A stretch of 64,000 nt of DNA from Paracoccus albicereus (lineage in GTDB: Bacteria > Pseudomonadota > Alphaproteobacteria > Rhodobacterales > Rhodobacteraceae), in NCBI RefSeq assembly GCF_024359525.1, contig NZ_JAKZEU010000002.1:310001-374000 (forward strand), given 5' to 3'. The translations under genes and the position numbers were made by a program. Below are positions 2,304 to 26,743 of this stretch, piece by piece; position 1 is the first letter of the stretch; every line of letters starts with the position of its first letter. The notes below the pieces were generated by a model, which saw nothing but the letters and a program-made list of their open reading frames with translations, had not been told where the DNA came from and did not search any database.

Positions 2304-4125
<1,822 letters not shown>

Positions 4126-4589: not shown

Positions 4590-5003
4590 ATGAAGCCGAG
4601 CAGAATGCTTTCTACCGCCCTGATCGCAGCCACGTTGGCCGCTGCGACGCCCGCCCTCGCGCTTGAGCCGCTGAGTCAGGAGCGCTACATCAACGACCGG
4701 CTGATCGCGGCGCGCGTTGCCGACCGGATCCGCCGCGAATGTTCCAGCATCGACGCGCGGATGATCTTTGCATTCACCCAGGCGCGCGCGCTGAAACGCT
4801 ACGCACGGGACAAGGGCTACAGCGAAGACCAGATCGAAACCTTCCTCGACAGCAAGGAAGACAAGCAGCGCATCTATGGCATTGCCGAGGATTATCTGGC
4901 ACGGAAGGGTGCAACGGCTGGCAACGAGGACGGCTTCTGCAAGCTGGGGCGGGACGAGATCGCGGCGGGCAGCGTGATCGGCTCGCTGTTGTCGGCGAAA
5001 TGA
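4590..5003 (+). CDS. Secreted DUF5333-like protein
   Basis: 137-residue protein with an N-terminal signal peptide ([19 protein letters not shown], cleavage after ALA near residue 23). The mature part is helical and charged ([19 protein letters not shown] ... [21 protein letters not shown]), with two Cys that could form a disulfide. It resembles DUF5333 proteins of Rhodobacteraceae (recollection, not verified). GGAG at 4577-4580 lies 9 nt before this ATG; an ATG at 4584 is in frame but only 3 nt from GGAG. Confidence 0.8.
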
Positions 5004-20451: not shown

Positions 20452-21162
20452 ATGACCGAGCCGACCAAACCCTTCGATCCGAATCCGCCGCGCCGCAACT
20501 TCTACGGCCGCCGCCACGGCAAGACCCTGCGCCAGAGCCAGAAGGGCTATCTGTCCGAGGATCTGGGCGATCTGCGCCCGCGCGGCATCACGGAAAGCGA
20601 AAACCCCGACCGCTCGCCCATCGATCCGACGGCGATCTTCGGCGATGACCGTCCGGTCTGGCTGGAGATTGGTTTCGGCGGGGGGGAGCACATGGTCCAC
20701 ATGGCCGCCACCTATCCCGAGATCGGGATCATCGGCTGCGAGCCCTTCATCAATGGCGTCGCCATGCTGCTGGGCAAGATCCGTGCGGCGGGCGTCAGCA
20801 ATGTCAGCGTGCATCCCGGCGATGCGCGCGACCTGATGGACGTGCTGCCCGACGGCGCGATAGACCGCGCCTTCCTGATGTATCCCGATCCGTGGCCCAA
20901 GGCGCGCCATCACAGGCGGCGCTTCGTCACGCCCGAGCATCTGATCCCGCTGGCGCGCGTGATGCGGCCCGGCGGCGAGTTCCGCATCGCCTCGGACATC
21001 CCCGATTATCTGCGCCAGTCGCGTGAAGAGGTCCCACCGGCGGGGTTTCAGATCATTGCGGATACCGACAAGCCCTGGGATGACTGGTTCAGCACCCGGT
21101 ACGAGCAGAAGGCCCTTCGTGAGGGCAGGGTGCCGCACTATCTGACGCTGCGGCGAAACTAG
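20452..21162 (+). CDS. trmB: tRNA (guanine-N7-)-methyltransferase
   Basis: Methylates G46 in the variable loop of tRNA using S-adenosylmethionine. Signatures: the basic N-terminal segment RRNFYGRRHGKTLR, the SAM-binding LEIGFGGGEHMVHMA (about 67-81), GCEPFINGV, and the catalytic-region FLMYPDPWPKARHHRRRF (about 141-158). 236 residues, family length. It converges on the AT-richer minus-strand gene; the two stop codons overlap. Confidence 0.96.
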   Translation: MTEPTKPFDPNPPRRNFYGRRHGKTLRQSQKGYLSEDLGDLRPRGITESENPDRSPIDPTAIFGDDRPVWLEIGFGGGEHMVHMAATYPEIGIIGCEPFINGVAMLLGKIRAAGVSNVSVHPGDARDLMDVLPDGAIDRAFLMYPDPWPKARHHRRRFVTPEHLIPLARVMRPGGEFRIASDIPDYLRQSREEVPPAGFQIIADTDKPWDDWFSTRYEQKALREGRVPHYLTLRRN

Positions 21163-21545
21163 CCGAGTGCGTTCTCCTGCTCAAAAACAATGTTGTCCCA
21201 ATCGTAGTCTAGGGTCTCCTTCCTGAACCGTAGTAGCGTTTCCTTTCTGATTGCGCGCTTAGCGAAACCTTCCAAGTCGAGAAGTTCGCCCAAGACTCCT
21301 TTTTTAGGCGTGACAAAAAGAGTCAGACCGAGGGGCAGTCCGGCCGTTTCCAGTGCCTCAAGTAGATACTCAAGGTCTCTTCCGACGCCAATCGGGATGC
21401 CTGTCGCACCTGTATCCTTCATCATTTCACTGTAAGTAAGATGCTGGCTGACCTTACGGCGTCCACCGGCTAGATCGCTGAGATGGCTGATTAGCCGATT
21501 GCCATACAGCGCCGCATTCGCGGTTCTAGTCCCTATTCGACGCAT
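21159..21545 (-). CDS. AT-richer orphan ORF truncating the sirtuin gene
   Basis: 128-residue product with visibly lower GC and different codon use from all neighbours. An SD-like AAAAGG lies about 7 nt before its ATG, and that signal lies inside the sirtuin remnant. The middle of the protein ([12 protein letters not shown] ... [16 protein letters not shown]) resembles a short helix-turn-helix-like domain seen in orphan and mobile-element proteins that read LTY.el ... glP.Lt.lVv. That similarity is by eye and weak. Its stop codon overlaps the trmB stop codon. Likely part of acquired DNA that replaced most of a cobB gene. Confidence 0.6.
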
Positions 21546-21655
21546 CGCATCACCTTTTCGACCCGATTACCCTCCCACAGCCCATCCGGGCCGCGAAACG
21601 TCGCAAGCCCGCTTTCGGCGGACACCCCCGCGCCGGTCAGCACCATGATCCGCAT
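21533..21655 (-). pseudogene. cobB: Remnant of NAD-dependent protein deacylase (sirtuin), 5' end only
   Basis: The translated start [20 protein letters not shown] followed by [15 protein letters not shown] is the unmistakable N-terminus of CobB/SIR2 class III sirtuins (NAD-binding [14 protein letters not shown]). Homology stops at about residue 36, where the frame runs into MRCVE and a stop. The catalytic His, the zinc Cys and the rest of the roughly 230-residue enzyme are absent from the window. The junction lies near 21545-21560, where the AT-richer ORF begins. Confidence 0.85.
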
Positions 21656-21662
21656 CAGCGGA

Positions 21663-21965
21663 TCAGCGGCAATAGGCCTCGGCCGTGGCGGTGAAACGCT
21701 TGTAGCGCGACCAGAAGGCGTTGTCCTGACCGGACTTCGACGTGCGCGCTTCCTGTGCCTTGTGCGGATCGCGGAAGAAGCTGGCCGCCCGGCGCTGATC
21801 GCCGCGCGACAGCGTCTGGTTCGCGACCTGCTGGATGCAGCCGCAAAGCGGCGCATTGGCGCGCGCCCGGTCCGAGCGCATGCAGGCGCTGTCGATCGGC
21901 CCGGCGACGGCCAGCGGCGTGGTCAGCGCGACGGCGGCCGCCGCGATGATGATGCGGTTGATCAT
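21663..21965 (-). CDS. Small secreted Cys-containing protein
   Basis: 100-residue protein with a signal peptide ([21 protein letters not shown], shown split: [12 protein letters not shown] and ALTTPLAVA) cleaved before GPIDSAC. Mature domain: CMRS ... [25 protein letters not shown] ... FWSRYKRF ... YC. The four Cys suggest two disulfides in the periplasm. I recall very similar proteins being widespread in Rhodobacterales and of unknown function. It ends just upstream of the sirtuin remnant and may once have been co-transcribed with it. Confidence 0.85.
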
Positions 21966-25691: not shown

Positions 25692-26090
25692 ATGATTGAT
25701 GGCGAAATAGTCAAGCGTGACGATGGCGATGACGATTACGCTGTGAGACTTCCCATCTCACGCGACGATTTCGGTGAGTTTCTTTCAGGCCTCATTTCTA
25801 CTAAACGTCAACTAGCTTTCAATATTCAAAATCCGGTAGTCGTAGATCAGAACTTAATTCTGGGAATAGATCGCGGTATCAAAGAGCGCGTTCTTGTTCA
25901 AAATCAATCCTCACTTATCCAAGCTACTGCCGAAGTCATATGTGCAAACGGTAATAAATATACAGAAAATTCTGTAGACGAATTACTAAAAATCGCGCCC
26001 TTGGGAAAGGTTGGAACCGAGGGCCTTCGCCTAGAGTACGTTTTCGCTATTTTTTTAAAGGTGCCGACACGCCTCAGAGACAGTCCATAG
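25692..26090 (+). CDS. AT-rich orphan gene, 5' part (frame interrupted)
   Basis: Codes for 132 residues starting MIDGEIVKRDDGDDDYAVRL, beginning immediately after the lepA stop. From about 25790 the DNA is strikingly AT-rich against a GC-rich background. At 26050-26056 a run of seven T (frame ATT TTT TTA AAG) is followed 30 nt later by a stop. The coding signal continues in the -1 frame as AIFFKGADTPQRQSIEIFFG and beyond. I take this as the N-terminal domain of one protein of about 350 residues split by a frameshift. No recognised family. Confidence 0.6.
   Translation: MIDGEIVKRDDGDDDYAVRLPISRDDFGEFLSGLISTKRQLAFNIQNPVVVDQNLILGIDRGIKERVLVQNQSSLIQATAEVICANGNKYTENSVDELLKIAPLGKVGTEGLRLEYVFAIFLKVPTRLRDSP
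26051..26057 (+). other. Candidate -1 frameshift heptamer (T TTT TTA)
   Basis: In the reading frame of the upstream ORF the sequence is ATT TTT TTA AAG, which contains the canonical X XXY YYZ form T TTT TTA. Slipping back one base joins it exactly to the downstream frame. The same result would come from loss of one T from an original eight-T tract (ATT TTT TTT AAA), by mutation or by a sequencing undercall. A possible stimulatory stem (GTCCA 26083-26087 with TGGAC 26101-26105) is weak. Confidence 0.5.
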
Positions 26091-26161
26091 AGATATTCTT
26101 TGGACGGAGCAGTCAGCGAATCAGAAGAATAGTAGGAGAACCTCAGTTCCATGAGCTGGGC

Positions 26162-26743
26162 TTGCGAGACCGGCAATCTTCCGGGGACGTTGTAATCTCG
26201 TATAGTGAGCGCAGTTGGGCGGAAGATATTTCAATACTATTGAAAAGGATATTTGATTCCGCTGATAGACCGGCAGATAAAGTATTATCGCTACCGGTAG
26301 CTTTTCGCTTTATTGGTGAAGAGTTCTTTCTAGTTCCGACTTCAGTCATCCTCGCCGCCTTTTACGCTTACATGACAGCTTCGCTATCAAACGCCTCTAT
26401 CCTGTCAAGAGCGTCTTATCTTTCGGAACTTAAGAATGATCCCGATGGATTGATTTTTATACTTGCAAAATCGCTCTCGCCGTTGGGACTGGTTACGCAG
26501 ACTGTGCTATTTTTGGCTATTGGCATTTTTTTAATAGTAGCTTTCTGCATGTTATGCTCAAAACTCGCCGGGTATACATACGTACCATATGTAATATTTG
26601 ATCTTTATGTTGAGGACTCACGCATATTAAGTTCGTTAAGCAAGCAAAGTCGCCGCTCCATATTTGTCAAATTAGGATCTTTTTGCGTTGCTGTTGTTGC
26701 TAGTATCGCTGCAGCGTATGCGTTTAGATTATTGGATGGATAA
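26162..26743 (+). CDS. AT-rich orphan gene, 3' part with three membrane helices
   Basis: Second half of the same AT-rich gene, in the -1 frame. Coding continuity starts at 26057, well before this nominal TTG start; in this frame 26057-26161 reads KGADTPQRQSIEIFFG ... FHELGL without a stop. Hydrophobic helices: FFLVPTSVILAAFYAYM, VTQTVLFLAIGIFLIVAFCM and FVKLGSFCVAVVASIAAAYA. The region before them is charged, so the full protein would be a soluble N-terminal domain anchored by three helices. Function unknown; composition suggests horizontal acquisition. Confidence 0.6.
   Translation: MRDRQSSGDVVISYSERSWAEDISILLKRIFDSADRPADKVLSLPVAFRFIGEEFFLVPTSVILAAFYAYMTASLSNASILSRASYLSELKNDPDGLIFILAKSLSPLGLVTQTVLFLAIGIFLIVAFCMLCSKLAGYTYVPYVIFDLYVEDSRILSSLSKQSRRSIFVKLGSFCVAVVASIAAAYAFRLLDG

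Follow-up and report, generated by a model that had tools for sequence, protein, structure and literature searches.

A small gene related to restriction-operon cargo occupies the place of most of the sirtuin gene cobB in Paracoccus albicereus

In Paracoccus albicereus most of the sirtuin gene cobB is missing, and its place beside trmB is taken by a short open reading frame, here called X, whose homologues lie in type I restriction operons. That a replacement event took place at cobB we hold with high confidence, and descent of X from a family of the slot between hsdS and hsdR is highly probable. The reading that we prefer, and consider likely, is that X was captured alone by illegitimate recombination into the trmB-cobB interval, deleting 190 cobB codons. 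Because its relatives reside inside operons for DNA restriction, X may be an anti-phage gene that strayed from such an operon by itself; judged from its gene neighbourhood, we rate a defence role at slightly below an even chance. The newcomer is more interesting than first thought and the loss of cobB less special.

Results

The trmB-cobB interval

The DNA analysed (hereafter the window) is the 64,000-nt stretch G000:C12:310001-374000. The names trmB, cobB and hsd follow from library matches, and rnj (RNase J), lepA, dmt, ispG and moaA are genes that we take, from their sequence, to be those named. The features of the interval are as follows.

20452..21162, plus strand: trmB, frame open, Pfam Methyltransf_4 at E 6e-38, aligned with G014, G019 and G029
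21156..21550, strand not applicable: foreign patch of 395 bp, with homology to three sister genomes ending on either side
21159..21545, minus strand: X, an open reading frame of 128 amino acids with homologues in type I restriction operons, aligned with five others
21533..21655, minus strand: cobB (Sir2 family) remnant of 40 codons, the first 35 homologous to intact cobB
21553..21556, minus strand: AAGG, Shine-Dalgarno-like site of X, inside the cobB remnant and 7 nt before the X ATG
21663..21965, minus strand: sp, small protein gene, ending 7 nt before the cobB start

The N-terminal motif GAGxSxxSGxxxFRG is that of Sir2/CobB deacylases. The remnant carries it and scores 25.5 bits (cut-off 24) against positions 1-30 of the SIR2 profile; the start of several NCBIfam sirtuin models was matched as well. 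A complete catalytic domain spans about 180 profile positions, of which the remnant covers 30 before its stop codon, 11 residues past WEG. The first-pass annotation had described a truncated cobB lacking roughly 200 codons, with an AT-richer frame starting inside the remnant behind a good Shine-Dalgarno site and running to the trmB stop. Each of these points was borne out: 190 of the 225 codons present in the sister genome G014 are gone, the GC content of X is 0.525 (GC3 0.550) vs 0.647 for the window, X overlaps the remnant end by 13 nt, and the letters CTAG are common to the stops of X and trmB. The further claim that the new frame reuses the translation signals of cobB holds in part. The Shine-Dalgarno-like site is built from cobB codons 33-35 (GAAGACGTG, GAGGATGTC and GAGGACGTG in relatives vs GAAAAGGTG in the window) and the remnant stop is overlapped, but the ribosome site of cobB itself is distinct and is not the one used.

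Sister genomes keep cobB in place

Among the matches listed, 27 genomes matched trmB as well as sp-cobB. In 24 of them the two matches are on separate contigs or 49 kb or more from each other; in G014, G019 and G029 they are neighbours. These three share the gene order rnj-trmB><cobB<sp - dmt>lepA>, as in the window, and alignment with them shows cobB intact at the same place (225 codons counted in G014 and G029). The sp product is 79-85% identical in relatives (tblastn), which also have the sp-cobB order in common. The window genome groups with G014, G019 and G029 at a FastTree support of 0.998 in a tree built on four proteins, RNase J, TrmB, LepA and the sp product, from 15 non-randomly chosen genomes (RNase J in 14 of 15, LepA in 9 and the small protein in 10), with two of the four genes flanking the site. 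The truncated cobB together with X is a real, derived state. An ancestral pair of short frames, which would have spoken against the replacement proposed earlier, is not what relatives have: the sisters keep cobB, and X recurs in one of 124 other genomes of the genus, at a different site.

Coming from trmB, homology to G014 stops at window position 21155, and coming from cobB it stops at 21551, so that the 395-bp patch occupies the place of 648 bp, comprising the 190 cobB codons, a 65-nt spacer and the trmB end. X fills 387 bp of the patch, whose edges lie 5 nt upstream of the X start and 3 nt past its stop; the final codon and stop of trmB (AAC TAG) derive from the patch. Inverted repeats were not reported within 21100-21620, and the search for a target-site duplication, suggested by the first-pass annotation, found none at the patch, as is expected of a replacement. 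Short direct repeats are present nearby (GCGAAAC at 21153 and 21593, plus imperfect copies of 11-15 nt); they do not flank the patch as a duplication would and may have taken part in the recombination.

Loss of the sirtuin gene

A search for another sirtuin gave no further SIR2 match in the window genome, which is 99.69% complete, the remnant being the sole one; the same search gave a match in 10 of 14 control genomes. On our preferred reading the replacement inactivated the only sirtuin gene of this genome, a loss that the sequence supports. The first-pass annotation had proposed that lysine deacylation by this enzyme was removed, but the loss is less special than it seemed. A SIR2 match is present in 31 of 36 other genomes of the genus and absent in five (G001, G005, G007, G016 and the 71% complete G017), and sp lacks an adjacent cobB in G001, G005, G007 and G016. 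In G018 (L135, about 823-1493) cobB consists of two overlapping matches in different frames, probably another sirtuin loss in the genus. With five genomes lacking cobB and a sixth carrying it split, the gene has been lost repeatedly in the genus and the loss in the window is not unusual. A lower lysine deacylation may follow, the search having covered deacylases of the SIR2 class.

X belongs to a small and rare protein family

Six X loci were found in all. Within the genus, X is present in 2 of 125 genomes, the window genome and G126, and among 72,556 plasmids in one, p_IV of P. aminovorans; the searches that gave the G126 and P. aminovorans homologues returned E values of 1e-15 and 4e-9. As a single-sequence query window X retrieved nothing from species genomes or viral contigs, so an alignment query was needed, and this found X in Rhodovulum euryhalinum, Tabrizicola soli and Pseudorhodobacter wandonensis among 84,980 species genomes. 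These scans of species genomes and viral contigs used short peptide patterns and are non-exhaustive. In the phage collection no record gave a match to X. Besides matches judged to be chance, even sampling of 385 genomes of the class, 390 of the order and 249 of the phylum brought in G766 alone, whose frames equal those of the Rhodovulum locus (L037) and which was not counted separately.

Several candidate members were rejected. The matches in G288 (E 0.001), G444 (E 0.007), G692 (E 0.008) and G997 (E 0.004) lie inside longer unrelated open frames and were taken as chance; a Vibrio phage match (E 0.3) and one from a Streptomyces plasmid (E 0.6) run antisense to annotated genes, and the remaining matches of these searches had E >1. 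With a Croceicoccus slot protein of 134 amino acids and six others, the X profile gave E 0.09 at best.

The six sequences align with 35 invariant columns. Window X, the most diverged copy, is 33-39% identical to the other five. Among the four closer copies dN/dS is 0.07-0.33, pairs involving the window and G126 copies being saturated or nearly so. Window X matches nothing in Pfam, NCBIfam, PHROGs or PADLOC. With E values up to 10 allowed, the six members share no family in these libraries between more than one of them (best E 0.057), and the best match of the alignment to PDB sequences (E 0.8) is at chance level. X represents a genuine protein family that the searched libraries lack; a word search, not a sequence search, of titles and abstract starts of open-licence papers found no literature on it. 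AlphaFold models from two runs of four sequences had a mean pLDDT of 45.5 (window X first) and 45.2 (Tabrizicola X first), so gene neighbourhood alone informs on function. The core LTYxxL...G...GxG..L suggested alkyltransferase-like winged-helix proteins, a resemblance that no tool supported and that was set aside.

Type I restriction operons are home to three relatives of X

In Rhodovulum, Tabrizicola and Pseudorhodobacter (L037, L038 and L039) X sits in the slot from hsdS to hsdR, with an ATG that overlaps the stop codon of hsdS. Pfam identifies HsdM and HsdS in all three operons and HsdR in Rhodovulum; in the other two, the DNA downstream shows a match to hsdR of Rhodovulum. Nothing extra follows X in Rhodovulum; a DUF6615 protein and a NYN protein follow it in Tabrizicola, and a 395-aa protein without a match in Pseudorhodobacter. 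Window X is 34-37% identical to these embedded copies.

We surveyed the slot in 35 loci with a related HsdR from viral contigs, in 21 of which it could be delimited. Both hsdS and hsdR are visible in 26 of the 35, and among these X occurs in one, R. euryhalinum itself. Twenty-six slot proteins, X included, were scanned and gave five Abi_C, three AAA_13, three Fic and two SIR2_2 matches. PADLOC names among the best 25 of 63 families include SoFic and PrrC with three members each, several names being possible on one protein. On p3 of Ketogulonicigenium vulgare (L180, 4930-5955) the slot is filled by a SIR2 family protein, and the HsdR of that operon shares 92.5% identity with the one of the X-bearing Rhodovulum operon. 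The Abi_C, Fic, PrrC-like and SIR2-like occupants show that the hsdS-hsdR slot holds exchangeable cargo. Much of this cargo belongs to toxin or abortive-infection types, X being a rare member.

X copies outside restriction operons

Three Paracoccus loci hold X without a restriction operon: the window, G126 and the p_IV megaplasmid of P. aminovorans. In G126, X follows ispG in the same orientation; its ATG is 33 nt past the ispG stop, and an alternative possible start (TTG) lies 30 nt upstream of that ATG. The close relative G012 (93-94% DNA identity) has an empty site of 75 bp, carrying a terminator-like sequence, vs 455 bp in G126. Also in G126 (L033, about 2988-3282, beside moaA) a repeat of about 295 bp has some 15 further near-identical copies in that genome and many similar ones in G064; it looks like an IS fragment or a small repeat family.

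A 478-bp stretch of p_IV that contains X matches the Tabrizicola locus at 92%, ending 26 codons into the DUF6615 gene, and the match to Pseudorhodobacter starts about 34 nt before X, in the hsdS end. These scraps of hsdS and the DUF6615 gene indicate that the P. aminovorans copy came out of a restriction-operon slot. X is preceded there by a stump, the initial 48 codons of a gene for an ATP-binding protein, which continues in frame to a stop that overlaps the start of X (ATGA):

4822-5001 (P. aminovorans p_IV, L034): gajA-like stump directly in front of X

A Hydrogenophaga relative of the stump gene has 575 codons and is followed by a UvrD helicase gene, which we take to be the Gabija arrangement. 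Further upstream of the stump lies a Beta_protein gene (PF14350).

All three copies outside operons stand in sense behind a host gene or stump, a coincidence that chance alone would give in one of eight such triplets. In the window, two AT-rich frames of 132 and 193 amino acids (25692-26743, plus strand; GC 0.44 and 0.42) follow lepA, the first starting directly at the lepA stop. They match nothing among the compared loci, and G014, G019 and G029 have other sequence in the 200 bp after lepA; this pair is possibly another capture behind a core gene.

Discussion

The preferred reading supposes that X left an hsdS-hsdR slot as a single gene and inserted between trmB and cobB codon 35, where the event would have removed 190 codons and killed the only sirtuin gene. 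The lack of reported inverted repeats and the replacement of host DNA make illegitimate recombination the most probable route. Placed as it is within restriction operons, X would be expected to do without its own promoter, and a patch bearing it would survive best at a site that provides transcription and translation. In the window X could be transcribed by read-through from sp and the cobB stump; it is third in a close-packed run after sp and the remnant, which makes the earlier proposal of expression from the cobB promoter plausible. The overlap of its start with the remnant stop, which resembles that with the hsdS stop in restriction operons, makes translational coupling possible, and we infer that both read-through and coupling would serve its expression. 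As to function, the weakest part of the reading, the genes around its relatives point to a putative accessory defence protein able to act on its own.

X could instead be a mere passenger, housekeeping or neutral in nature and kept because it is translated, with no part in defence. The want of any family or fold match and the divergence of the window copy are consistent with this, but X retains an open frame with start and stop, invariant columns are shared by all six sequences, dN/dS is low among the closer copies, and one genus holds three copies outside operons despite the rarity of the family. We regard the passenger account as unlikely.

The sequence of events could also have been different, with cobB lost or broken first and X landing later in the remnant, taking no part in the loss. 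The repeated absence of cobB elsewhere in the genus, in four cases behind a conserved sp, and its split state in G018 speak for two such steps, as does the G126 copy, which entered an intergenic site without breaking a gene. At the window, however, the 35 codons of the remnant are undamaged, their junction with X spans no more than 5 nt, and degraded cobB sequence is absent from it. The low identity of window X to all other copies counts against our preferred reading here, since it leaves the patch traceable to no donor and hence one event not separable from two. We regard the two-step history, too, as unlikely.

Carriage of X by a transposon, homing element or other mobile unit targeting such sites would explain its presence at three unrelated sites outside restriction operons. 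Against this, the window patch has no reported inverted repeats, X has no match among transposase or nuclease families, the three sites differ in how much non-X DNA they carry, and the replacement of 648 bp is at odds with a simple insertion with target duplication; we consider a mobile unit very improbable. An assembly error or chance frame can be dismissed almost entirely, for although the junction is carried by one genome and as an assembly only, the patch sits well within a 1.1-Mb contig and X is a full-length homologue of proteins in other genera.

Two further facts weigh against single-gene capture from a restriction slot as we prefer it: 25 of the 26 related operons with hsdS and hsdR visible lack X, and the window locus has no restriction operon, the type I system found in this genome being distant (HsdM 31-32% and HsdR 29% identical). 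A broader and more tentative idea, which we think doubtful as a whole, is that X serves defence or counter-restriction independently of its operon and has been picked up in Paracoccus on three or more occasions without a promoter. It would survive in sense right behind a host gene or stump (cobB, gajA, ispG) that lends it transcription and, in many cases, translation, here at the cost of the only sirtuin gene. What the locus offers is an apparent defence-slot gene that has moved free of its operon and of any recognisable mobile-element ends, three natural constructs with such a gene in sense behind a host gene, and a sirtuin loss in visible form. The small protein family, lying outside the searched libraries, is a candidate for phage and restriction tests. 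Were X to act alone, restriction operons would, through their cargo slots, supply single-gene defences missed by current catalogues.

Comparison with known systems

The remnant resembles the CobB/Sir2 deacylases in its 35 5' codons, its place next to sp and its intact sister orthologues, but about one sixth of the enzyme is left and profile positions 31-180 are gone. Homology-facilitated illegitimate recombination, as described, likewise lets a short heterologous patch replace host DNA without mobile-element ends; at the window, by contrast, no homologous anchor or donor is seen and the route is deduced. Gabija (GajA-GajB), as a putative assignment, is touched on where the P. aminovorans X follows the 48-codon stump of a gajA-like gene, although the stump alone is present and X is no part of that system.

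The closest parallels are systems embedded in type I restriction operons, and they fit the view of the hsdS-hsdR slot as a place for cargo. DarTG2, of the RptR island, is reported to lie between hsdS and hsdR, a site that may be a hotspot (PMC12255303); TgvAB is reported inside a type I operon (PMC11411939), and PrrC inside EcoprrI (PMC3874165, PMC12707154). The guardian nuclease PrrC differs in that X matches no PADLOC model, that of PrrC included, and no Pfam family, and so shows neither homology to PrrC nor an ATPase domain. Unlike all of these, window X stands alone without restriction genes. To DarTG2 and TgvAB the likeness is one of carriage inside a type I restriction operon, where the relatives of X lie, as DarTG2 does, between hsdS and hsdR.
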